DNA from: an uncultured Bacilli bacterium
GTDB lineage: Bacteria > Bacillota_I > Bacilli_A > RFN20 > CAG-826
DNA length: 33,236 bases
Direction: 5' to 3'
Assembly (NCBI GenBank): GCA_944368975.1
Contig: CALVXI010000011.1
Coordinates: forward strand, 1-33,236
The notes below the pieces were generated by a model that saw only the letters and a program-made list of their open reading frames with translations, had not been told where the DNA came from and searched no databases. Each line of letters opens with the position of its first letter. Positions within the stretch are counted from its first letter, which is position 1. Made by a program: the position numbers and the translations under genes. Below, piece by piece: positions 2,881 to 20,048 of the stretch.

Positions 2881-3189
2881 TTATTGAATTTGAGAAATAT
2901 TTCCGACAAACAGTCCGAAAAGGCCAATAAAAGGAAGACAATATGACAACAAGAATATTACAGTGATAATTACACAATTAATTATAAAATATTTCCTATT
3001 TTCAAAATGAACAAGTGCTATGAGTATAAAGTAAGCCGCTATAAATAAAATCAAGCCAACAAGAAATAAAGGTATAAATGGATTTTCCCACTTAGCCTCT
3101 TCATATAAAAAGCTAATACTGGCTATCCCGACAAAAAAACCAAGAATTACTAAACAGTAAGTCAAAGTAAGAAATAGTTTGTTCTTCAT
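2881..3189 (-). CDS. Small three-helix membrane protein
   Basis: A 102-residue, very hydrophobic protein with three likely membrane helices (about 6-28, 38-61 and 67-95), a short acidic loop (YEEAKWENP) between the first two, and little soluble mass. No family is recognised. The start is supported by a good AAGGAG site 8-9 nt before the ATG. The gene lies 107 bp downstream of the structured RNA at 3297-3862 in the same orientation, with no obvious terminator between, so the two may be co-transcribed. A large RNA followed by a small membrane protein recalls OLE RNA and its partner OapA, but length and sequence do not let me call this OapA. Confidence 0.65.
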   Translation of the reverse strand: MKNKLFLTLTYCLVILGFFVGIASISFLYEEAKWENPFIPLFLVGLILFIAAYFILIALVHFENRKYFIINCVIITVIFLLSYCLPFIGLFGLFVGNISQIQ

Positions 3190-3296
3190 AGTGTTAATCT
3201 CCTTAACTAAATTTTAACAAGATTAAAGTTAAAAAACCATAAATGAACTTACGATTAACAGAATAAAATAAAAAATAGTATTCGTTATATCAATTA

Positions 3297-3862
3297 GTTT
3301 TTTGAAAATTAGATTATCTACGGACCTTCGCCCTACAAGACTTATTGTAATTTGTTATTCATGCACATTCAATTTAGGCTGAGAATGGAATAGCGACTTC
3401 CATTCTTCTAAAAGGGGTTAAAAACCGAACAATGAGTAGAACTAAATCATCTACCAACTTTCACAGAGCTTCAGCATTTTTTTAAGGATCATTTGGTACC
3501 CATTACCAAAAAAATGACATTCTGCTACTCGAACCTTAGAAATTGTTATAGCTAATTACTTAGCATCAAGTCAAACGTTTATTTTGAGAGCGGAGATATA
3601 CATTTCTCAGATGTACATCTTATCGCGGGATATATCACTATAGAGCCTCTTGTCACGCCAATTTCATCGTCATTTACATCGAACAACGTCTTGCGCCATT
3701 AACCATAGCTTACTTCTTTTATTACAAAGTAAGGATACCTTTTCATCGCTTTCAAGGTCTAATAAATATTACAGCATCCCATAATATTCATTTCTTATGG
3801 TTAAGCCTCGGCCACGTGCAACGATGACTGCACCGAGGTGTAAAATCTAATTTTCAAAAAAC
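3297..3862 (-). ncRNA. Large structured non-coding RNA (class unassigned; ROOL-like candidate)
   Basis: No usable open frame crosses this stretch, yet it is visibly richer in G and C than its flanks and packed with stems. The ends are a perfect 19-bp inverted repeat (3844-3862 with 3297-3315) that would close the whole molecule. Inside, in minus-strand order, are 3833-3838/3806-3811 around 3829-3833/3816-3820; a 9-bp long-range stem 3796-3804/3699-3707; 3726-3733/3709-3716; a 10-bp stem 3611-3620/3594-3603; 3560-3564/3551-3555 capped by a GUAA tetraloop; 3531-3538/3483-3490 enclosing 3504-3510/3492-3498; 3450-3454/3436-3440; 3398-3406/3382-3390 (9 bp); and 3330-3333/3322-3325. Stems alone favour minus-strand transcription only weakly; support comes from the GNRA loop, the neighbouring genes and a possible -35 (TTTACA, 3924-3929) with a weak -10 (3901-3906). 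A length near 566 nt fits what I recall of ROOL RNA (roughly 580 nt, in Firmicutes and Tenericutes); OLE and GOLLD are alternatives. It does not resemble RNase P RNA, tmRNA or SRP RNA. Confidence 0.75.
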
Positions 3863-3962
3863 AATAAACATAAGGAAATACTATTTCTTTTGTGTCACAT
3901 ATATTGCCATATAATAAAATCTTTGTAAAGCAAAAAAATCAAATTTTTTTATTAAAAAAATC

Positions 3963-3991
3963 AGATTTATTATATTAAATATAATAAATCT
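3963..3991 (-). terminator. AT-rich stem-loop terminator
   Basis: A perfect 12-bp stem (3963-3974 with 3980-3991) has a 5-nt loop and is followed on the minus strand by a 7-T run (the A-run at 3953-3960). It sits just after the stop of the 5'-nucleotidase gene and separates it from the structured RNA. A T-run also follows on the plus strand. Confidence 0.7.
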
Positions 3992-4004: not shown

Positions 4005-6377
4005 TTATAAATTTATTGTTCCACTATGTAATAAATAATCGCTTAGAACATCGCTAGTTACATAATCATTGTAATAATATATATAATCAGCTACAGGTCT
4101 ACTACCATTAAATGTTTGCTCAGCAACATAAGAAATAGTTATTACATAAAATGTAGTATTGCTTGAAGTTGAATATGTCTTTTCACTACAAAGAGAATCA
4201 TTATTAGTTAAATAATTATATTGGTCTAAATCACATTCAAGTATACAAATCGAATTAGTAAAAGGACAAACTTTAATTAAATCTCTAAATGTAAAAGGAC
4301 CACTACTTACGCTATCTCTAATACCACCATAATTATGAACACTAGCATCAATTGAATAATAAAAATCTAATCTATTACGAGCAAACCATAATAAAGCATC
4401 ACATACAATTGAAGTAAATTCATCTCTACTATAATATTTTTTAAAATTATAAATTACTTCATCACCATCAGGAATTACATCTTGATAAATATCTAATAAA
4501 TTATTAATCTCGGCATTATCTTCATCACAATAACTAATTGCATCTAATACATAATTATCTACGAAATTAAATGCATAATCGTCTTCACTTATTCTTTCAA
4601 CTTCAAAATTCATTTGTGTAAAATATTCACCATTACACCCACCTTCTAAATAAGGTACACCATTATAAGTTCCACTTTTTCTTAAATGATCATGAGCAAA
4701 GAACATCGCATCAACATATCTTTCACCACTAATCTCACTTTCATAAGTTAAATCTTCAAACTTAGTTGGACTACCATTATAACCTTCAAAACCACCATCA
4801 TGAGATAATAATATAATTAAATCACAACCTTCACTTCTTAATTTATCACTTTCATCTTTAATGTATTCTATTGGATTATCAAAAATAAAGTCTTCAGCAA
4901 TACTAGGTAAAATATCTTCGCCAATACCTTCCATAATACTACCAATAACCCCAATTTTAACATTTGCTTTATCAATAATAACGGAAGGAACAGTAAAATT
5001 AACTGGCTCGTGATTATAACTATATAAAATATTGCAAGCGAGTAAAGGGAACTCCATTATATCTAAATTATCTTTGATAGCGCTTAAACCCCAGTCAAAT
5101 TCATGATTTCCAATAGTCATAGCTTCAACGCCCATTATATTCATTGCTTGAGTCATGATTAAACCTTTAGTGTAATTTGATTCAAGTCCGCCTTGCCACA
5201 TGTCTCCGCCACTAAGTAGTAAAGTATTTTCACTCTTATTTTTTAAAAAGTATTGTCCTAAATAAGAAATCCCTGCTTCACCATTTTCTTCATTTCTAAT
5301 AAATGAACCATGTGTATCATTTATTGAATAAATTGTAAATTCTTTTCTATCACCAATTTCTAAAGGTTCAATAACTTCAATTGTATAGGATATATCGTCA
5401 TATCCATTTTTAGAAATAATAACTTCTTGTTTTCCAATTGTGTTTAATATTGTACCTTCATCGATACTTAATGAATAATCTTTAACAGTAAATCCACTTG
5501 TAACATCTTTTATTTCAAGTCCTTTACTTGTAAATGGTTCACCTTGTTCAAAATATAGTTTCTGAGCATTCTTACTTATTCTTAAACTTACTTTATCCAT
5601 TACAATTACTGAAAAACTAGTCTCTTTAAAATATTCTTTTGTTACTGTAATTGTAATTTCACCTTTGTGTTTAAAAATATAGCCTTCTGGTAATGAAGTT
5701 TTATAGCCATTAATCGCTGCACTTCCATCGCCAACCATTAAGCCCGTTAAATTGAGTGCTTCTCCTACTTCGTATGTTGTTTTAATTGGTTCATTAATTA
5801 TTGATAAAGAACCCATTGTAACAGTAATGCTTATATTAGCATCTTTATACCCGTCTAATCTAATTGTGAAATAATAGGTTTTGAGTTCATCAAAAAGAAA
5901 TTCAGTTACTCTTTCGCCTTCATGATAAATAGTAAAACCAAAAACTCTTTCATTAGTTAAAGCATCATAAACATATAAATATTGTAAATCAAGATAAGAG
6001 CCAACAGTGACTTCTCCAAATTGCTCTACATCAACTCTAAGTTCATTAGTTAATGTACTAACAATAATTTTATCTTCTAAAACATAATCATAGTAACCTT
6101 CTTCACGAATGATTACATTAAATTCTCCTTGTTCATAAAATTTATATCCTTCATATATTTGAAGAAAATTATCGAGATATATTTCATAATCATTAATTTC
6201 TTTATTATTAGCATAAACTTTAAAAGAATCACCGATTACGAATTCTTCGCCAATACCATACGTCAATTTTTCAAATTGTCCGGATACACTTAATCTATCT
6301 AGATTACGACAACTAGATAAAAATAATGGAGATAATATTGTTAATAAAAATATAGATAAATTCTTAACTTTTTTCAT
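4005..6377 (-). CDS. Surface 5'-nucleotidase lipoprotein (UshA-type metallophosphatase)
   Basis: A 790-residue lipoprotein (lipobox FLSSC, Cys23) expected to remove phosphate from nucleotides outside the cell. The first ~340 residues are beta-rich modules of bacterial Ig type, including one near 200-260 ending in ITVTKEYF. The calcineurin-like metallophosphatase follows: INDTHG (352-357, metal ligands Asp354 and His356), GGDMWQGG (390-397), GNHEFDWG (423-430), LLSHDGG (His526) and FAHDH (560-564), where many relatives have GHxH. The 5'-nucleotidase C-terminal substrate domain (about 650-790) has the typical N-Y-G-G-I-R and PFTN segments. All main metal ligands appear present, so it should be active. 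There is no ribosome site: TATAAT lies 6 nt before the ATG, implying a leaderless transcript separate from the nuclease gene upstream. Substrate (AMP, dNMP, UDP-sugar) cannot be told from sequence. Confidence 0.9.
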   Translation of the reverse strand: MKKVKNLSIFLLTILSPLFLSSCRNLDRLSVSGQFEKLTYGIGEEFVIGDSFKVYANNKEINDYEIYLDNFLQIYEGYKFYEQGEFNVIIREEGYYDYVLEDKIIVSTLTNELRVDVEQFGEVTVGSYLDLQYLYVYDALTNERVFGFTIYHEGERVTEFLFDELKTYYFTIRLDGYKDANISITVTMGSLSIINEPIKTTYEVGEALNLTGLMVGDGSAAINGYKTSLPEGYIFKHKGEITITVTKEYFKETSFSVIVMDKVSLRISKNAQKLYFEQGEPFTSKGLEIKDVTSGFTVKDYSLSIDEGTILNTIGKQEVIISKNGYDDISYTIEVIEPLEIGDRKEFTIYSINDTHGSFIRNEENGEAGISYLGQYFLKNKSENTLLLSGGDMWQGGLESNYTKGLIMTQAMNIMGVEAMTIGNHEFDWGLSAIKDNLDIMEFPLLACNILYSYNHEPVNFTVPSVIIDKANVKIGVIGSIMEGIGEDILPSIAEDFIFDNPIEYIKDESDKLRSEGCDLIILLSHDGGFEGYNGSPTKFEDLTYESEISGERYVDAMFFAHDHLRKSGTYNGVPYLEGGCNGEYFTQMNFEVERISEDDYAFNFVDNYVLDAISYCDEDNAEINNLLDIYQDVIPDGDEVIYNFKKYYSRDEFTSIVCDALLWFARNRLDFYYSIDASVHNYGGIRDSVSSGPFTFRDLIKVCPFTNSICILECDLDQYNYLTNNDSLCSEKTYSTSSNTTFYVITISYVAEQTFNGSRPVADYIYYYNDYVTSDVLSDYLLHSGTINL

Positions 6378-6383
6378 GTTTAT

Positions 6384-6389
6384 ATTATA
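6384..6389 (-). promoter_or_regulatory. -10 box for leaderless nucleotidase mRNA
   Basis: A perfect TATAAT on the minus strand ends 6 nt before the ATG at 6377, so transcription should begin at or next to the start codon. No purine-rich ribosome site lies in between and no good -35 is visible 16-18 bp upstream. Confidence 0.5.
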
Positions 6390-6426
6390 TAAAATTTAAT
6401 TAAAAAATAGAAATAAAGTAAAAATA

Positions 6427-7527
6427 TTAAATAAACAATTGATTTACTAATTCAGGAAAATCAATATAAGGATTACGGTTTCCTTGATATTGATAAATTT
6501 TCATATTTCTTTGTTTTTCAAATTCATCGACAGGATCTAAGTCATTCCATTCTAATAAATCTGAAAGTATTCCCATTGATACATTAGAATTTGAATTTGG
6601 ATTATCGCTTAAATATAAGCCATCATAATTGGTGTACATATAAAATAATGTACGAGCAACGTCTCCTCTAAAATCATAATCGCCATTGCCAACATTTGGG
6701 AAGAAAATATCACCGGAATTAACGTTACCGAAATAATCATTACCTCTAGAAGAATTCGTTGAAGGATCACTAACTCTTAAATTATGTAAATCACTTCCTA
6801 TTCCTCTATAACCATTGTCTGTTGGGATTTTACCATTAACTTGCATATGACTTCTTGCCCAAACATGTTCTCTATTCCAACTTCTTCCTTGATCCCAAGT
6901 AATAGGAATTTCAGCTCCGTCATATAGGCCATAAAGACTTCCTAGTTCTGTTACATTTTCATCAACATATTGCAAACAATATCTAGCATCGCCATAAGTA
7001 TATGTTTTTTGAACTGTTGTAACTTCCTTTAATTCATTTCTTAAATTTTCACCAGTTAAGGTTAAATCAACATCTTTATAATATTCAGAAAGTGATGATA
7101 ATTCATAAACTGTATCAGGAATTGATCCTCTTCCAGTTTGAACAGATGTTTTAATAACTTCTGTTTCAGTTGGTAAATCTACTGGTGGATCTATTGGCTT
7201 ACTACCTTTTTCAATAAAACTAACAACTATAGTAGTATCTTCGACTAAAGGAAATTCGTAGTAAGCTTCTGAATATAATAAATTTGCATCATTAATTTCA
7301 TTTTTATAATATCCATCAAATTGATAGTCTTCTAATCCAAAACTATTAAGAGAAATAATAGTGTTTTCTTTATAAGACCCTGAAATAGTTCCATTAACTA
7401 CTCCTTTTGTACTATCAAATGATAAGGTAAAGTTATAATTTTTTACTTCATTTTGACTATTTTGGGTGCAAGATGATAATGGAAATATTGATAAAATACC
7501 TAATAAAACTAAAAATCTATTTTTCAT
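6427..7527 (-). CDS. Endonuclease I-family surface nuclease lipoprotein
   Basis: A 366-residue lipoprotein (lipobox PLSSC, Cys20). Residues ~32-106 resemble the InlB B-repeat (Listeria-Bacteroides repeat; note DGYYKNEIND), a small surface module. Residues ~120-366 match the bacterial endonuclease I family (EndA/Vvn, HNH-like beta-beta-metal fold): TYGDARYCLQ, then the catalytic NREHVW (218-223, His221 as general base) and DLHNL (246-250), followed by N-S-S-R-G-N (258-263) as the metal-binding part. Family members cut DNA and RNA non-specifically outside the cell. The ribosome site is short (GGAG, 5-6 nt before ATG). The gene starts directly after a strong terminator that follows the 786-residue lipoprotein gene, so it is probably fed by read-through. 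The domain call is firm; substrate preference is unknown. Confidence 0.88.
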   Translation of the reverse strand: MKNRFLVLLGILSIFPLSSCTQNSQNEVKNYNFTLSFDSTKGVVNGTISGSYKENTIISLNSFGLEDYQFDGYYKNEINDANLLYSEAYYEFPLVEDTTIVVSFIEKGSKPIDPPVDLPTETEVIKTSVQTGRGSIPDTVYELSSLSEYYKDVDLTLTGENLRNELKEVTTVQKTYTYGDARYCLQYVDENVTELGSLYGLYDGAEIPITWDQGRSWNREHVWARSHMQVNGKIPTDNGYRGIGSDLHNLRVSDPSTNSSRGNDYFGNVNSGDIFFPNVGNGDYDFRGDVARTLFYMYTNYDGLYLSDNPNSNSNVSMGILSDLLEWNDLDPVDEFEKQRNMKIYQYQGNRNPYIDFPELVNQLFI

Positions 7528-7544
7528 ATTTTCTCCATAAAAAA

Positions 7545-7575
7545 AGGTTGCTACTTAAAGTACAAGTAGCAACCT
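7545..7575 (-). terminator. Strong intrinsic terminator inside the locus
   Basis: A perfect 12-bp GC-containing stem (7545-7556 with 7564-7575) has a 7-nt loop and is followed on the minus strand by seven T (the A-run at 7539-7545). It lies between the 786-residue lipoprotein gene and the endonuclease gene, whose ribosome site begins a few bases later. Confidence 0.85.
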
Positions 7576-7584
7576 AAATAATTA

Positions 7585-9945
7585 TTACTTAACTGCGGAA
7601 ATTGTTACTCCACCAAGACTAGCATTATTGCACGCAGTACCATCATTATAATAAGCAGTCATTACTATTTTAACTTGGCAAATACCGGTTCCGCTAATTG
7701 TTACACTTGATGTTTCACCTTTAGCTAATTCATCAATATAACCTATGGCAGATGAAATCTCATTTCCAGAACTATCTAAACCAGTAACCGTAAAGACATG
7801 TATGTCGTCAGCTTCATTGGTTTTTGTATTTGGATTAAGCGCATTAATTAAAACACTGACATTTACAGAATCACTAGCTGTAAATGATGGGGAGGTAACA
7901 CCCATATCTACAAAGTTCAATTTTAAGCCACCATCCTTGTAAAAGCTAGGATCTGGATACTTTGGATTATTAGGGATATATGTCCAACCTGCAGGAATAG
8001 CGTTATTAATTGTAGCTGTAGCAAGAACATCACCGCTAGGATCAACAGGTGTGTCTCCACCTTCTTCCTTTGAAACTAATTGAGCGTTAAGAATTTGACC
8101 TTTACTTGGATCTTTAGTCAATCCTTGAGCATTTTTATCATAAACGCCAAAAGCTCCTTTAACAGTAATCTTATCTCCAACTTTTAGTTCAGCAAAAGAA
8201 TTAGCATCGGAATAACGTGAATCGTTTCTAACTTGAACAGAGTCGCCATTAGCCAATGTCATAGTTACATTACAATTTCCAAATTCTGGATCGACATAAA
8301 CTTCAGTAACAGTTCCTGTTGCATTAACAACTCTTCCGGCATCATCACCATCATAAGTATCCATATCTTCTAAAGTTATTTCAGTAGGAGTTGTTACACT
8401 AACACTTGTATCTTTTTGTATTGTCCAAGCACCTTTATCAAATTGTAATGAACCATTATATAATGTTAATGTACCACCGACAGTTACGGTGTCGCCAACA
8501 GCAACGCCTTCATCACCAGAAGCACCAAAAGCTAAAATACCATAATTGCCTTCACCAATATAATAACCATACGTTTTTGTATTCTTTGGAGCATAGGTAA
8601 TTATACCTTTAACAAAGACTTTCTCGCCGGCTTTTATTGTTCCGTTTTTAATTCCAGTATAAACTGATTCAATAGTTACTGGCTCGTAAACTTCATCAGT
8701 AACAGTAATTGTAAGAGGTTCACTAGTAATAGAGCCTGTCTTAGCAACTAAAGTTGCTGTTCCAGCTTTTCCAACTTTAGCTGTAATTTCATATTTTGCA
8801 TTATCAACTTCAATAAGATCAGCTCCAGAAGTGATTTCAATTGTTGGTAAAGCAGCAGCTCCATCAGGAGTAACATCAAAATCTAATTGAGCACTTTGCT
8901 TTTGCATTAAAGTTGTTAAGCTTGATGTTAAAGTAATTCCTGTAACGGCGATACTTTCTTCCTCAGTAAAACTAATTGGATAGAAATTGACACGATTAGT
9001 AAAATTATATCTTCCGTCGGTATGATCTCCACGACCGCCAAGAATACCAGTCATTGTATAACGATCATTAACTTGGAAATCTTGTTTAATAATAGTGTTT
9101 TCATCAATATAACCAGTATAAACAACAGTTGTGTCATTCATTCCAGCAGTAGTCCAGAAGAATTTGCCATCTTCAAATTCATCTAGCATTGTTAAAGTAA
9201 CTTTAACTGGGATAGCTCCTTTTTTATCATCATAAATAGTATTTAAAGCTTCACCTGTAAGTTCTTCAAAATTTAAAGTTACATTAATTGTATCTTCTTT
9301 TTCTTTATAAACTTCAGCTGGATTTGTAAGTTGAGTTAAACCACCATATTCACTAGTTGTAGAATCTCTAACAACGATAGTATCACCAAGAGCGATGCCA
9401 CTAGGAATTGTTTCATAAACATAAATGATACCAGTACTATCAGCAATAAAATATCCGCCACTAGCAATTTGAATAACTTCAGCTCTAACAGTAACATTAT
9501 TTGTTCCTGAACTTAAAGCAAGAGCTTCTTCAACAGTAATTGTTTGAACTTCATCACGTGGTAAAATTGTAATAGTGACTGAGTCAGTTAATGTACCAGC
9601 AGTAACAGTAATCGTTGTAGTTCCAGCACCAACAGCATTAATATTAACACCATTAACAGTAGCAACATTTGTATCACTACTTGTAGTTGTAATATTGCCA
9701 TCCATAATTTCACTTTGAACGTTACTTGATGGGCTTGTAGTAATTTCCATTCTTCTACTAGTTGCAGTGCCTAATTTCCATTCAGCAGTTAAAGCTTCTT
9801 TGTTGCTGATAGTAATTGATTCAAATTTGTTTTCATCTTTGTTAATTACATCAGTATCACATGAAGTTAAACTGCCTAAGGTAAGAGCACCAAAGCAAAG
9901 TAAACTACTTACAAGTAATGTACTTCTTATTTTTTTCTTTGACAT
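7585..9945 (-). CDS. Modular Ig/OB-fold surface lipoprotein
   Basis: A 786-residue lipoprotein (lipobox LTSC, Cys29). The order appears to be a Big_2-type Ig module (about 40-127, with the typical N-A-V-G-A-G-T-T-T-I-T-V); an OB-fold-like module (about 135-215, G-G-Y-F-I-A-D-S-T-G-I-I-Y-V-Y); a second OB-like stretch; a second Ig-like module (about 335-420); two more OB-like modules (around 425-520 and 525-630, with G-D-T-V-T-V-G-G-T-L and G-D-K-I-T-V-K-G-A-F); and a C-terminal beta-sandwich-like domain. These OB modules resemble those attached to secreted nucleases such as YhcR, and here they sit next to separate nuclease genes. I infer a nucleic-acid-binding surface receptor; no catalytic motif is seen. 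AGGAGG stands 6 nt before the ATG. A strong terminator follows. Confidence 0.75.
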   Translation of the reverse strand: MSKKKIRSTLLVSSLLCFGALTLGSLTSCDTDVINKDENKFESITISNKEALTAEWKLGTATSRRMEITTSPSSNVQSEIMDGNITTTSSDTNVATVNGVNINAVGAGTTTITVTAGTLTDSVTITILPRDEVQTITVEEALALSSGTNNVTVRAEVIQIASGGYFIADSTGIIYVYETIPSGIALGDTIVVRDSTTSEYGGLTQLTNPAEVYKEKEDTINVTLNFEELTGEALNTIYDDKKGAIPVKVTLTMLDEFEDGKFFWTTAGMNDTTVVYTGYIDENTIIKQDFQVNDRYTMTGILGGRGDHTDGRYNFTNRVNFYPISFTEEESIAVTGITLTSSLTTLMQKQSAQLDFDVTPDGAAALPTIEITSGADLIEVDNAKYEITAKVGKAGTATLVAKTGSITSEPLTITVTDEVYEPVTIESVYTGIKNGTIKAGEKVFVKGIITYAPKNTKTYGYYIGEGNYGILAFGASGDEGVAVGDTVTVGGTLTLYNGSLQFDKGAWTIQKDTSVSVTTPTEITLEDMDTYDGDDAGRVVNATGTVTEVYVDPEFGNCNVTMTLANGDSVQVRNDSRYSDANSFAELKVGDKITVKGAFGVYDKNAQGLTKDPSKGQILNAQLVSKEEGGDTPVDPSGDVLATATINNAIPAGWTYIPNNPKYPDPSFYKDGGLKLNFVDMGVTSPSFTASDSVNVSVLINALNPNTKTNEADDIHVFTVTGLDSSGNEISSAIGYIDELAKGETSSVTISGTGICQVKIVMTAYYNDGTACNNASLGGVTISAVK

Positions 9946-9972
9946 AAAATTCCTCCTAAATGTCGTACGAAA

Positions 9973-9993
9973 ATTGCTTACCTGCGAAGCAAT
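9973..9993 (-). terminator. Possible attenuator hairpin
   Basis: A 7-bp perfect stem (9973-9979 with 9987-9993) has a 7-nt loop and four T after it on the minus strand. It lies in the 50-bp gap between the zinc-ribbon gene and the Ig/OB lipoprotein gene. It looks too weak for full termination and may reduce read-through. Confidence 0.4.
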
Positions 9994-9995
9994 GT

Positions 9996-10460
9996 TTATT
10001 GAAAAAATATCTCATTTTGGATATTTTTTAATAATGTAGTGTATTCTTTGTGTTTAAGAATTCCTTTGATAAGGTTAAATAATGAATAGCCTAAAGCTAA
10101 AACTGCTAATACTAATAAAGCAATAAATACATAAAATTCTGTGCTATCTGTTACTAACATTCCACCAGCGCTTGCTTTAAAAGACATTAAGAAAAACATA
10201 AAACAAATAACAAATAAAATAATAGAAATCATTAAAAAGCACATTCCACTATTAATATTATTTCTTGCTCTATGAATTTCAGCATGTGAAGCCCTTGATA
10301 AAGCCTTGACTTCTTCTTCACTTAAACCTTCTTTTATGACATGCCCACAACGAGGACAAACATAACCTATTTTTGTATTATCGTCTTTCAAAACTGTAGA
10401 CTTTTTAGCCTTTAGTATTTGTTTTTCCTTTAAATCATATCCACAGTGAGAACAATACAT
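9996..10460 (-). CDS. Zinc-ribbon, two-helix membrane protein
   Basis: A 154-residue protein. Two Cys pairs, C-S-H-C (3-6) and C-P-R-C (35-38), form a likely zinc ribbon of the type often found at the N-terminus of small Firmicutes membrane proteins. A charged linker (about 45-68) precedes two hydrophobic helices (about 71-91 and 105-130). No enzymatic motif is visible, and the ribbon probably faces the cytoplasm. AAGGAG is 9 nt before the ATG. The 50-bp gap to the nuclease gene upstream contains an extended -10 (TGTTATAAT), so a secondary promoter is possible. Its position among nuclease and transporter genes suggests an accessory role, but the function is not recognised. Confidence 0.7.
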   Translation of the reverse strand: MYCSHCGYDLKEKQILKAKKSTVLKDDNTKIGYVCPRCGHVIKEGLSEEEVKALSRASHAEIHRARNNINSGMCFLMISIILFVICFMFFLMSFKASAGGMLVTDSTEFYVFIALLVLAVLALGYSLFNLIKGILKHKEYTTLLKNIQNEIFFQ

Positions 10461-10509
10461 AACCTACTCCTTAATTATAACAAAAATAAATGTAATTTAA
10501 TATTCTAAA

Positions 10510-11628
10510 TTAACTATAAATATTTAGTTTATTATCTATAGCATAATTCAAGGCATAATTCATATAGTCTTGATATAGAATATCTTTAGAATATAAAGAT
10601 GGATAATCGTCACTTCCATAACGTGCTAACCCATTTATAAGTAACTCGTGATTTAAAAGCTTTAAATCACTATAAGAAGGGTTTTCCTTAGTTGTATACC
10701 AAACAAAACCTAATGTTCTAGAATACGTATCTTTTAATCCAGCATCTTTACTTGATTGAACTACTATTAAAGTTGCTTTATTTAGACGATCGTTATTAAA
10801 CTTTTTAGCTTCTTGCCCATATGGTTCTTCAACAATATCACTACCAGGACCATGATCAATTTCAGGTGTATTTATAAGTAAATATCTAACACGGTTATTG
10901 TAATCATTTTCAATTCCACTGCCGCTAGGAAAATTAAAATAGGTAGTATCTCCATCGCCTAAAGAGTTCACAGTTACTTCGCAAAATCCATTAGTAGCAG
11001 TATTATTTTTTGAAAATGGTAAATCACTATATAATTCCGTTTCAAGAACTGGCCCATTAAGAACTTCTTCTAGTGAGATAGGGCAATTAAGAATACCTAA
11101 ATTATCTAAATAATTAGGTCTATATTTAATAAAATGAGTATTATTAAAAACTTCATAACCTTGATGATATTCATTAAGTCTAATTAAAGAACCATCACTT
11201 AAATACTCTAAATTAAAGCCTTTTTGTCCTAATGAATCGACTACAAAACCATCTTTATCAACTAGTTCAACATAATATCGTCCACAAATATAATTATCAT
11301 CTAATTTAACAATAGTAGAGATATCATTAGTATATTCAAAATCATTATTTACAAATAAAACTAATTTACTAGTGTTAATAATTTCATCTGTAAATGTATA
11401 GGTATAACTAATTTCTTCTTTACCGGTATAAAAATTAACTTTAAAACCATCTAATGAAAAATCTTTATTGCTAGATGTTCCTAATTCTAATACACAGTCG
11501 TTTATACTGTTACCAGAATAAAATTCACTAAAAAACAATATATTTTTATATTGAGATTCATTATTTTTACATGAAACTAATGAAATTAAAGACGATAAAA
11601 ATATTATTGTTTTTAGTGTTTTACTCAT
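10510..11628 (-). CDS. Lamin-tail plus SNase-like lipoprotein with altered metal site
   Basis: A 372-residue lipoprotein (lipobox LVSC, Cys20). Residues ~29-130 look like a lamin-tail domain (F-F-S-E-F-Y-S-G-N, then V-L-E-L-G), a module often fused to secreted nucleases. Residues ~216-372 match staphylococcal nuclease: G-D-G-D-T (224-228), RVRYLLINTPE (246-256) and YSRTLGFVW (302-310). Compared with S. aureus nuclease, the Asp21 and Arg35 equivalents, Glu43 (here Glu256) and the Arg87 equivalent are kept, but the Ca-binding Asp40 position is Asn253. It may be weakly active or a nucleic-acid binder. The ATG follows the stop of the upstream nuclease gene by 2 nt and lacks a ribosome site, so translation is probably coupled and the two products may act together. 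Confidence 0.82.
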   Translation of the reverse strand: MSKTLKTIIFLSSLISLVSCKNNESQYKNILFFSEFYSGNSINDCVLELGTSSNKDFSLDGFKVNFYTGKEEISYTYTFTDEIINTSKLVLFVNNDFEYTNDISTIVKLDDNYICGRYYVELVDKDGFVVDSLGQKGFNLEYLSDGSLIRLNEYHQGYEVFNNTHFIKYRPNYLDNLGILNCPISLEEVLNGPVLETELYSDLPFSKNNTATNGFCEVTVNSLGDGDTTYFNFPSGSGIENDYNNRVRYLLINTPEIDHGPGSDIVEEPYGQEAKKFNNDRLNKATLIVVQSSKDAGLKDTYSRTLGFVWYTTKENPSYSDLKLLNHELLINGLARYGSDDYPSLYSKDILYQDYMNYALNYAIDNKLNIYS

Positions 11629-11630
11629 AA

Positions 11631-13088
11631 TTATTTTACTAAAACTATATCCTCGTTACTTCTAGGAATAATTTGCCAAGTTATATTGCCACTTGCACTC
11701 TTATGGAAAGAATAAATTCCAGTAACTCTTATTGTATGGCCAACAAAGTCTTCATATCCTTGATAAGTGTCAATTGGATTATTTGGATCTGGGGTATAAA
11801 TAAAAGGAACATATACTGAGAAATCAGTTCTTTGACCATTAGCTGTTTGACAATATAAAGTAGCTTCAACTGGAATTCCTGATGAATCATATCCTCCAGT
11901 TATAGTTAATTCTTCAGTGACAGTGACAGGAGAGAACATAACATCATAATTAGCTTCACCTAATTCACTGGCAGTCATTTCGAATGTATGAACTTTATAT
12001 TCTTCTGGAATATCGTCAGCTTTATATAAAATCTTAGTATCGTTTTCATCATTACTACTACTAAGTTGTGGGAAACTATAAACACTAGTTAATTGGAAAC
12101 CAAAGTTTTCATTATCTTTAGCAACTGCACTAAGTTCAAGATATGTGTTTACTTTAGTATATTTAGATGGAATAGGTGACATACCAGTAAAGATATTAAT
12201 ACCAGCATATTCTATTGTTGCGCTTGTTCCATCTTCACTTTCAGTTTCAAAATATGTTTGTAAATAAAGCATATTATTTGCATATCCGGCAACAGTTCCT
12301 CTAACACGAACATTTTTATTGTTAAAGCTGTTTTCTGTACCATTTTCTAATGAATTGACAATTTCTTCTTTGATAGCAAGTAAATCTGTCATTACATAAT
12401 CACCATAATTAAATAAATCGTCTGGTTCATTACTAAATAAATTTAATTCATTATCTCTAGCCTGACTTTCTGCGGCATAAAATGTTTCGCTAAACTCTGG
12501 AGCTTCATCAAGATTCTTAACATAACTTAAACCATCTTGAACAATCCATAAATTTAATAATGATAATTCATCATATGGGCAATTTTCTTCTTCACTAATC
12601 CATACCATTCCTAAATATCTTGTACCAGTTGAATCAGTGCTAGGTGGTTCATATGTAGAAATATTGGTTGAAGTAATAACAATCGTTTTAGCGGTTTCAA
12701 TCTTTTCTTTAGTAAAATTTTTAGCTTTTTCACCATATGGTTCAACAGTTCCAGTACTTTCAGGAGTATCAATGCCATAAAATCTAATTTTAATTAAATC
12801 ATTGCCTTCAAGAGTTCTAAAGTGAACTGTATCCCCATCAATGACAGTGTATGGGTTATCTTCACTTGATGTATTACCTAAAGATTTAACTTCTGTAATA
12901 CCATCTTTAAAGAAATCTCTATTATTACCATTATCATCTTTATAATCGATTTTTAGTCTAACATCTTCAGATGTATGAACGTAATCTATTAATTCATTTT
13001 GTGAACGATCACAACTCGAAATTGTTGTAGTAAGTCCTACTAAGAAAGTACATGATAAGATAAATGCTAAAGTTTTTTTATATCTCAT
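11631..13088 (-). CDS. Staphylococcal-type thermonuclease lipoprotein
   Basis: A 485-residue lipoprotein (lipobox ISSC, Cys26) with an SNase domain at about 60-215. Key residues fit an active Ca-dependent nuclease: IDGDT (83-87), I-R-F-Y-G-I-D-T-P-E with Arg102, Asp107 and Glu110, and GTRYLG with Arg157. The remaining ~270 residues contain an OB-like segment (about 250-340, V-R-V-R-G-T-V-A-G-Y) that could hold substrate, and another beta-rich stretch. Expected products are short nucleic-acid fragments released at the cell surface. AAGGAG overlaps the stop of the binding-protein gene upstream, 11 nt away, so this belongs to the ABC operon. That physical link is the best clue that the transporter handles nucleic-acid products. 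In M. genitalium and M. pneumoniae a surface nuclease is, as I recall, likewise next to ABC genes. Confidence 0.9.
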   Translation of the reverse strand: MRYKKTLAFILSCTFLVGLTTTISSCDRSQNELIDYVHTSEDVRLKIDYKDDNGNNRDFFKDGITEVKSLGNTSSEDNPYTVIDGDTVHFRTLEGNDLIKIRFYGIDTPESTGTVEPYGEKAKNFTKEKIETAKTIVITSTNISTYEPPSTDSTGTRYLGMVWISEEENCPYDELSLLNLWIVQDGLSYVKNLDEAPEFSETFYAAESQARDNELNLFSNEPDDLFNYGDYVMTDLLAIKEEIVNSLENGTENSFNNKNVRVRGTVAGYANNMLYLQTYFETESEDGTSATIEYAGINIFTGMSPIPSKYTKVNTYLELSAVAKDNENFGFQLTSVYSFPQLSSSNDENDTKILYKADDIPEEYKVHTFEMTASELGEANYDVMFSPVTVTEELTITGGYDSSGIPVEATLYCQTANGQRTDFSVYVPFIYTPDPNNPIDTYQGYEDFVGHTIRVTGIYSFHKSASGNITWQIIPRSNEDIVLVK

Positions 13089-18152: not shown

Positions 18153-20048
18153 TTATTTAATGTAGATTCTTTCTTGAGTTACTTTGTCGAAAATAAATAA
18201 TTTATTTGGCTTAACTCCTAAAGTAACTTCTCCAGATACATTAGCATTTTCGTTTGTAATTATTGCTCTAAATTTTTCTTCTAATGAATGATCATTTTTA
18301 GCGATAATTGAAATATCTCTTCCTAAAATTTGAACTTGCTCAACTTTTGTTTCTAATCCATATCCTTTAGAATCTTTATTAAAAGTAAATCCTTCAGGAC
18401 GTATTGCAACAAATACTTCTTGATTTACAACTCCTTTAGCGCTTCCAATCTTTGATTCCCCAATATAAATTTCTTCATTTTTAACTTCGCCATTAAAAAC
18501 ATTGATTTGTGGAGTTCCTAAGAATTGTGCAACGAATAAATTTTTAGGATTATCATAAACATTTTGTGGAGTATCAATTTGTTGTTCAACACCTTGTTTC
18601 ATAACTAAAATTTCATCGCTGATACTCATTGCTTCTTCTTGGTCGTGAGTAACGAAAACTGTTGTAATACCAGTTTCTTTTTGAATTCTTCTAATTTCTT
18701 CACGTGTTTGAAGTCTTAATCTAGCATCTAAGTTACTTAAAGGTTCATCGAGAAGTAAAACTTTAGGCTTTTTAACTAAAGCTCTAGCAATAGCAACACG
18801 TTGTTGTTGTCCACCACTAAGTTGAGATGGTTTTCTTTGTAAATATTCCTCAATTTGAACAAGTTTAGCTACATCATAAACAATATCTCTTCTTTCGATA
18901 GCATTTAATCTACGATAACTAACACTAGGTGTAACTTTTGATTCTATTTCTTTTAAAGATAATGATGATGTAATTGATTCTTTGATTTCTTCTAAAATTT
19001 TAGTTGTAACTTTTTTAAGTCTAAAGAAAACTTCAGTAGAGCCATGATTATCATAAACATTCAATTCTTGAAAATATTGCCCATGAGAAGAAATAGCCTT
19101 TTTAGCCATTTTTGTAAATTCTTTTGTTTCAACTTTACTAATTTTATAAGATAAATCAGATGCTTTAACTAATTCTTTAATTTCAGCAATTGAATTAATC
19201 AATGTAGCGTAATTTGTTTTAAAATCAACTAAAGCGTGAACTACATCATTGGAGACATAAGAACTTATTAATTTAACTTTAAACCCTTTAGAAGTCATAT
19301 ATTTTTTAAGTTCTTTACTTAATTCATCAGTTAAATCAGAGGTTAAAGTAATGTTATAAAAGCCAATACATATCTTTTCTTCATCTTTTACATCAAAAGA
19401 GTATTTTAAAACAGCATCAAATAAAGCTTCGCTTGATTGGACTTTTTGTACATCTATTGTTTCAGGAGTAATTATTTTATCAAAGTTTAAAGAAAATAAT
19501 TCATTATTCTTTTCACTAATATTAACTAATTCAATAACTAAATTTAATTTATTTTCATTAACAGTTTGTTGAATTTTACATTGTTTATTAGGAATACCAA
19601 TTTTATTAACTAAAGTTTTAATTGATTTAATAATTCCTTCTAGATAATCATCTTCTTTAAGAGTATAAGTGATCGTATAGGTGAATGTATAAAAAGTAAC
19701 AAGGGGAACTTCAACTTTTAAATTAGTTAAAGGAAATTCGACATTTTTATAAATTGTCATATGAGGATATAATGCGTAGTTTTGGAAAACTAAACCGATT
19801 CCTCTTTTTTCAGGTGATAAATTTGTAACTTCTTCTTCACCAAACCACACTTCTCCAGACGTTGGAATTTGTAAACCCGAAATCATATAAAGAGTTGTTG
19901 ATTTTCCACAACCACTAGGACCAAGAAGGCCAACAAGTTTGCCATCAGGTACTGTCATATTAAGATCACTAACAGCGACAGTATCTTTAATGTGTTTTTT
20001 TGGATTTCCTGGGAAAATTTTTGTTAATCCTTTAAGTTTAATTTCCAT
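18153..20048 (-). CDS. UgpC/MsmX-type ABC ATPase with ~270-residue insertion
   Basis: A 631-residue cytoplasmic ATPase; ordinary members are about 360-380. Walker [10 protein letters not shown] (43-51), Q-loop FQNYALYPH (Gln89), signature LSGGQQQ (410-416), Walker B LLLDEP (431-436) and H-loop VTHDQ (His468) are all intact, and a MalK-type regulatory OB domain follows (~510-631). Between P-L-T-N-L-K (~111) and E-R-R-D-I-V (~385), inside the helical subdomain where MalK has only a short loop, lies a ~270-residue insertion with repeated alternating beta and alpha segments. As I recall, the long UgpC-like ATPases of human mycoplasmas (MG187, MPN134, about 585 residues) are also enlarged, and sit by a nuclease gene. 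An AAGGAG site lies in the last codons of the upstream gene, whose stop is 4 nt away. Confidence 0.92.

Follow-up and report, generated by a model that had tools for sequence, protein, structure and literature searches.

The window analyzed here, the whole 33,236-nt stretch of DNA from an uncultured Bacilli bacterium, carries a ROOL RNA on its minus strand. On balance, we favor an account in which this RNA belongs to a chromosomal clade of the family and is predicted to form a cage, and in which a helix-turn-helix (HTH) protein of its relatives likely activates ROOL through a palindrome; both the protein and the palindrome are missing for the window copy. ROOL RNAs build hollow cages larger than the bacterial ribosome from RNA alone, and the sections of the structural paper that we draw on describe neither a function nor a protein partner for them (PMC12286853). 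Those sections suggest that the cage holds RNA or ribosomal parts, a role that we would adopt as a working guess. ROOL is seen here in chromosomal settings unlike those of phages. Such a chromosomal clade, together with the DNA-binding protein linked to it and its putative operator, would offer a handle on when cells make ROOL: switching the HTH protein could reveal when the RNA appears and then what effect it has. Among the titles and abstract openings that our literature search listed, none mentions a ROOL regulator, which does not in itself establish absence from print.

Identity and fold of the RNA

The Rfam ROOL model (RF03087) matches positions 3301–3861 on the minus strand (561 nt) along its entire length (1–574 of 574). 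The cmscan score of 211.7 bits (E = 9.7e-47) passes the curated gathering score of 99.1 bits, and we regard membership in the ROOL family as practically certain. This is the single match within the window's 1.30-Mb assembly. The initial annotation had guessed ROOL, correctly, while allowing for a new class of RNA, which at the level of the RNA family is wrong. The covariance-model search that it had proposed returned six Rfam matches at E ≤ 10, ROOL being found and OLE, GOLLD (RF02032) and HEARO being absent.

The initial annotation had also remarked that the small membrane-protein gene next to the RNA recalls OLE, and an OLE-like RNA might work with such a neighbor. A gene for a 102-aa predicted membrane protein (2881–3189, minus strand) does lie about 110 nt downstream of ROOL on the same strand. 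Against this, the OLE model gives nothing at E ≤ 10, and the protein matches no Pfam or PHROG family at E ≤ 0.001, was unclustered in the neighbor comparison and has no counterpart beside the 21 other ROOL loci compared (a set without G083). By family match, the protein is likewise not recognized as an OapA-type neighbor. With no sign of a conserved partner, we rejected this candidate as unsupported, and we give the OLE-like reading virtually no chance.

The minus-strand fold has a predicted energy of −153.4 kcal/mol, compared with a mean of −123.7 for shuffled sequences (z = −4.57; 0 of 100 shuffles as low). Its closing helix, P1, is a perfect 19-nt inverted repeat (5′ arm 3844–3862, 3′ arm 3297–3315, minus strand) whose arms are separated by 528 nt, as the initial annotation had described. 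The 9-bp long-range pair that it listed is present (3699–3707 with 3796–3804), and its 10-bp hairpin and GUAA-capped hairpin both appear in the minimum-energy fold. Its description of the flanks as plain AT-rich DNA did not hold, because the inverted repeat goes on outside P1: a 13-nt 5′ flank arm at 3877–3889 is 92% complementary to a 3′ flank arm at 3270–3282 (minus strand). P1 and these flanks could together form an imperfect 47-bp helix (−40.1 kcal/mol, z −8.9). Long helices extending P1 are found at the window, G014, G043, G044, G057 and G238 (−39.7 to −48.1 kcal/mol, z −6.1 to −8.9) and also in six of nine ROOLs from tRNA islands (z −5.6 to −9.1). The stalks of rRNA precursors are cut by an RNase III-like enzyme. 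By analogy, we infer that the extended P1 is a processing stalk, and the 47-bp stalk of the window RNA would be cut by such an enzyme in the same way.

The structure is constrained among relatives. We aligned 21 of the 22 chromosomal ROOLs described below (G148, cut at its 3′ end by a contig end, was excluded) and took the consensus from RNAalifold, since projecting the structure from the Infernal alignment misplaced several helices. Of 115 consensus pairs, 90 have at least one sequence changed on both sides, so the compensatory changes that the initial annotation had wanted sought are abundant. The window keeps 111 of the 115 pairs (96.5%) of this structure, which derives from an alignment containing the window sequence; random changes in equal number leave 78.5 pairs (sd 3.4), and 0 of 5000 draws reach 111. 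Between the window and its nearest relative, G043, all 18 doubly changed pairs are still paired, and of 16 pairs changed on one side, 5 are broken in one of the two sequences. The comparison with G014 gives 29 of 31 doubly changed pairs still paired.

In the cryo-EM structure, contact B4 between cage subunits joins loop L8 to junction J6/8 of the neighboring chain, according to the sections of that report used here (PMC12286853). Helix names follow the same source; the mapping onto this RNA is our own and its register was chosen by eye. In the window, L8 (UGAGA, 3605–3609) and J6/8 (UCUCA, 3585–3589), both on the minus strand, are complementary at all five positions. Over the 21 sequences, 103 of 105 cells are paired and 17 sequences are identical, a result equaled by 1 of 5000 shuffles; the contact is fully re-matched in G058 and G223b and mostly re-matched in G127. 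Among viral ROOLs, the pair was found in its expected form in vL023 only, by a search pattern too narrow for the others. Judged by these alignments, the structure of the window ROOL is conserved, including B4. Because cryo-EM structures exist for the family and the B4 contact is kept, we predict that the window RNA folds as phage ROOLs do and assembles into a cage made of RNA alone.

Distribution and genomic settings of chromosomal ROOLs

With the window ROOL as query, blastn picked out 20 of the 279 genomes in the host's order, spread over 13 of 56 genera. This count is a lower bound, two candidates having been scored per genome. One ROOL missed by blastn, in G083, was added through the HTH search described below, bringing the known total to 21 of 279. 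Within the window's genus (26 genomes, 12 of the other 25 being searched more deeply), blastn found ROOL in the window's genome only. Twenty loci were scored with Rfam, and 19 were above the cut-off at 171.0–221.4 bits. One locus (L092, 9910–10182, on contig C4 of G096) holds only the 5′ half of a ROOL, a full copy being present on another G096 contig. Our working set therefore comprises 22 chromosomal loci, including the window, G083 and the second G096 copy and excluding the half copy.

As a contrast set, 17 fetched loci were scored with Rfam, ten with ROOL and seven without. Nine of the ten are tRNA-island ROOLs, surrounded by 3 to 28 tRNA genes; eight of these are on IMG/VR contigs and one is L037, a contig end in a Mollicutes assembly. 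The tenth, L038, is the G043 locus itself (record CALVJO010000002.1, an uncultured Bacilli assembly). Two further contigs fetched by motif, L025 and L028, lie outside the Rfam-scored set and resemble copies of L014 and L006 by their motifs. The tRNA-island copies score 296.4–348.5 bits, compared with 211.7 for the window and 131.6–221.4 for the other chromosomal copies scored. ROOLs usually lie in phages and prophages, often by tRNA islands, a placement that is typical without being defining; it was not found for the window, whose one tRNA gene is 29 kb from ROOL. Two chromosomal copies do have tRNA genes nearby: four at about 2.5 kb in G043 and a single one at about 0.9 kb in G058.

A tree of 32 ROOLs places the 22 chromosomal copies on one side of a branch supported at 100/98 and the nine tRNA-island copies, with the long-branched ROOL of Ligilactobacillus salivarius, on the other. 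Very probably, then, the chromosomal ROOLs form a clade separate from phage-type ROOLs. Within it the window groups with G043 (90/88), then with G014, G044 and the long-branched G083 (99/99). G014, G043 and G044 belong to family f3 and have a common gene order around ROOL; the host of the window belongs to family f1. Because the nearest ROOLs are in another family and blastn finds none elsewhere in the genus, transfer is the simplest reading, and the window ROOL was likely acquired in this way. No empty site was found in the genus, where the flanking genes are present in other genomes but in different order. Searches of phages and plasmids by blastn with the window ROOL, and of phage records with a fetched viral ROOL, found nothing.

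Several tRNA-island and chromosomal loci carry additional features. A single IMG/VR contig (L004, IMGVR_UViG_3300022753_000048) holds both ROOL (7558–8229, 296.4 bits) and GOLLD (12269–12780, 152.8 bits, barely above the cut-off of 150); some 4 kb separate the two, and 28 tRNA genes surround them. The ROOL-bearing tRNA island of the Mollicutes assembly also contains a RAGATH-33 RNA (L037, 2360–2472, 139.6 bits). At three loci (L089, L093 and L095), a protein family of 80–118 aa (cluster 16) follows directly after ROOL on the same strand.

We considered and rejected two candidate settings for the relatives. TIR, Fic, AbiE and restriction genes occur near some of them, but PADLOC matched 70 families among 136 proteins within 4 kb of ROOL and 95 among 136 control proteins (14 ROOL genomes), so there is no enrichment of defense genes near ROOL; the control places were hand-picked, 136 of 151 ORFs were used (15 short ones were dropped) and families rather than proteins were counted. 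A prophage setting fared similarly, with 63 PHROG families among neighbors (a set without the window, G083 and the half copy) against 69 among controls. No terminase, portal or capsid family is among the 25 listed for each set, and one "structural protein with Ig domain" family among the 25 listed matches two neighbors.

In the window, the gene directly upstream of ROOL encodes a lipoprotein of the 5′-nucleotidase/metallophosphatase type (4005–6377, minus strand; PF00149, PF02872). It belongs to a run of lipoprotein genes (4005–13088), with those of an endonuclease I and two SNase-like proteins, that seems devoted to nucleic-acid breakdown; a solute-binding protein is also among the upstream lipoproteins on this strand. 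Downstream lie the 102-aa membrane protein and an AAA ATPase. Elsewhere, an ABC-transporter ATPase of 631 aa (18153–20048), read by eye, seems to carry an insertion of about 250 residues that separates Walker A from the signature motif. No structural phage genes were recognized in the window proteins scanned (10 with PHROGs, 15 with Pfam); a TetR-type regulator has a weak match (5.2e-5) to a terminase-small-subunit family over 26 residues. One window protein had no relative in a search of genome contigs.

The neighboring HTH protein and its palindrome

A gene for an XRE HTH protein of about 70 aa lies within 2.3 kb of ROOL at 17 of the 22 chromosomal loci. It is downstream and convergent at 16 of them, no more than 100 nt away at 11 of these (tblastn match); the G083 copy is upstream instead and shares the strand of ROOL. 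The five loci without a nearby copy are the window and G238, which have none; G148, whose contig ends inside ROOL; G223b, whose contig ends 377 nt after ROOL, with a second HTH gene on another G223 contig, 104 nt short of that contig's end; and G127, whose contig ends 32 nt after ROOL and which has the HTH gene inside another contig, with no ROOL in 14 kb there. The protein is absent from all nine tRNA-island loci.

We built a profile (A1) from the 16 convergent proteins and searched the 279 genomes of the order. It gave 19 matches at 90–136 bits in 18 genomes, the next match scoring 51 bits. The three strong matches outside the proteins used for the profile (G083, G127 and contig C4 of G223) all come from genomes that carry ROOL; in the 258 genomes where no ROOL is known, there is no strong match. 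Fisher's test on the resulting table (18, 0, 3, 258) gives 1.4e-25, a figure that is descriptive only because the proteins were found beside ROOLs and the genomes are related; moreover, both HTH and palindrome were first noticed in the same loci in which they were then counted. HTH and ROOL distances correlate at r = 0.65 over 17 pairs and at r = 0.12 in the 13 without G014, G043, G044 and G083.

The G043 protein matches HTH_3 (PF01381) above the cut-off (46.1 vs. 23 bits), and the same family is given for the best 120 of 693 HTH homologs. Solved relatives by profile include PezA, SinR and the phage 434 repressor. Among plasmids, 85 records match at E ≤ 1e-3, all below 60% identity, the best at about 54 bits among the 60 listed; phages yielded 8 records at about 44 bits. 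In a class-wide sample of 395 genomes, 11 have the HTH protein at E ≤ 1e-17. Seven of these are in the order, all of them ROOL genomes. The other four, outside the order, score 75–91 bits and show no ROOL in the 1.5 kb on each side of the gene, or as far as the contig reaches, so the link between protein and ROOL does not hold everywhere.

The palindrome, GGACA-N5-TGTCC with at most one mismatch, stands within 130 nt upstream of ROOL at 20 of the 22 loci (16 exact, 4 with one mismatch). It is missing at the window and G238, the two loci that also have no HTH gene, and is absent at the L. salivarius ROOL and all nine tRNA-island loci. Four further sites occur in the 22 loci (about 390 kb), two of them preceding the HTH gene (G212 and G096b). 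The mean match to TATAAT at the 20 loci is highest 23–24 nt after the palindrome, at 5.2 of 6; in shuffled stretches the best-scoring offset averages 3.33 (sd 0.11), and 0 of 2000 are as high as 5.2. The hexamer at this spacing is the single best of its stretch at 10 of 20 loci and best or tied at 16, better ones lying elsewhere in G100 (26 nt), G057, G212 and G223b. A −10-like box at this distance puts the site near −43. At the spacing that suits it best, the −35 region agrees with TTGACA at 2.8 of 6. At 13 of the 22 loci the RNA has the other of two end layouts, a short P1 with the −10-like box directly 5′ of it and the palindrome 35–39 nt ahead of the match. A T run lies 3′ of P1 at 12 of the 22.

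It could be argued that the palindrome is merely the terminator hairpin of the gene preceding ROOL and the HTH gene a chance neighbor. A run of at least five T within about 20 nt after the palindrome, as a terminator might have, is found at 5 of the 20 loci (G014, G044, G168, G148 and G057), but the other 15 have no such run. The −10-like spacing also persists while the distance from the start of the palindrome to the ROOL match varies between 35 and 88 nt, the palindrome recurs before the HTH gene where ROOL was not found, and the strong HTH match is absent from genomes of the order without known ROOL. We therefore consider a terminator very unlikely.

A longer form of the site, GGACANNNNNTGTCCTC, occurs at 28 places in 26 of the 279 genomes, compared with 6 matches for a reversed control pattern. 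Fifteen places are within 130 nt before ROOL, one is further upstream of the G148 ROOL and 12 are elsewhere; on these counts the site is not exclusive genome-wide.

All four HTH relatives outside the order have an exact GGACA-N5-TGTCC 137–170 nt before the HTH start codon (4 of 4). As the HTH gene is identical in two of the four, they amount to three cases. Protein and palindrome thus occur together even where no ROOL was detected, as would a regulator and its site. These loci are L182, L183, L184 and L185; the two with identical HTH genes, L182 and L183, carry a further site, with one mismatch, across the gene from the first, so the protein likely has other targets.

We think it probable that the HTH protein is a ROOL regulator in the host's order. 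The reasons are its place beside ROOL, the palindrome with its −10 spacing, the restriction of strong matches to the protein to ROOL genomes within the order and the palindrome before the gene itself in relatives. Binding of the palindrome by the protein would fit their co-occurrence, and a protein bound there would probably activate the ROOL promoter in most relatives. Activation seems to us the somewhat likelier direction, because the site lies near −43 before a promoter with a non-consensus −35, as with lambda CI at PRM.

The opposite effect deserves consideration, since XRE proteins are often repressors, and the solved relatives by profile are PezA, SinR and the phage 434 repressor among others. 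The HTH protein might repress ROOL or silence it until stress, like a leftover phage repressor of the element that brought ROOL in. The palindrome before the HTH gene in the four out-of-order relatives, G212 and G096b is what autorepression would look like. At the ROOL loci, however, the site is upstream of the putative promoter and does not overlap it, the −10-like boxes peaking 23–24 nt beyond. On this evidence we hold repression to be rather unlikely.

State of the window copy and comparison with known systems

The window assembly (completeness 94.8%) has no HTH protein of the ROOL-linked subfamily. The stretch upstream of its ROOL (3862–3991, minus strand) contains neither the palindrome found at 20 of the 22 chromosomal loci nor a recognizable promoter. 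The window copy may therefore be silent, or it may depend on read-through from the preceding genes or on an unusual promoter; without its regulator, the RNA may still arise by read-through or from a promoter that we did not recognize.

These missing elements would suit a relic, left by a phage or mobile element, that is decaying and no longer has a function. The window's is also the sole ROOL that blastn finds among 26 genomes of the genus, and the half copy in G096 points to decay of ROOL copies. Retention of 96.5% of the consensus pairs, the 18 of 18 compensatory double changes relative to G043 and the intact B4 contact argue the other way, although all of them could predate a recent loss of function. 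Weighing both sides, we find a functionless relic doubtful.

More tentatively, with slightly less than even confidence, we propose that a lineage of uncultured Bacilli may have domesticated the phage RNA cage. ROOL, its own CI-like activator and a dedicated operator phased to the −10 box would make up a mobile chromosomal cassette, a regulated gene for an RNA organelle that passes from one chromosomal site, and one family, to another. The window would then be a case of the RNA traveling without its switch.

The RNA can be set beside several known systems. GOLLD and OLE are, like ROOL, large ornate RNAs that form cages or dimers, as the sections consulted of the structural paper have it (PMC12286853); their models give no match here. 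Phage and prophage ROOLs (RF03087), known as an octamer from the portion of the cryo-EM work cited (PMC12286853), share with the window RNA a whole-model match, the closing P1, P19, the L8–J6/8 contact and a length of several hundred nt. The window ROOL differs in being chromosomal, in belonging to a separate clade and in its lower score. The HTH protein of the relatives shares its domain, by profile, with the Cro/CI-type (XRE) regulators PezA, SinR and 434 repressor, and differs from them in having about 70 aa, with little beyond the HTH domain, and in lying beside an RNA gene in the order.

The closest parallel for the pairing is L. salivarius. Its ROOL is encoded on megaplasmid pMP118 and is as abundant as 16S rRNA, and the HTH gene LSL_1884, transcribed separately, lies downstream; deletions of the RNA, with or without LSL_1884, revealed no clear function and lowered the megaplasmid ratio, according to the excerpts of that study available to us (PMC5643018). 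We confirmed this ROOL at 130.4 bits, with the HTH gene (LSL_1884/LSL_RS10395) 77 nt away. An HTH subfamily common to the clade and L. salivarius was rejected, the L. salivarius protein scoring 5.8 bits against the clade HTH profile, below the 23 bits of another XRE protein in the window. As in the clade, then, an HTH gene lies downstream of ROOL on pMP118, and the ROOL–HTH pairing may reach further than the order; unlike in the clade, the gene is on the same strand as the RNA, has that low profile score and is found without the palindrome.
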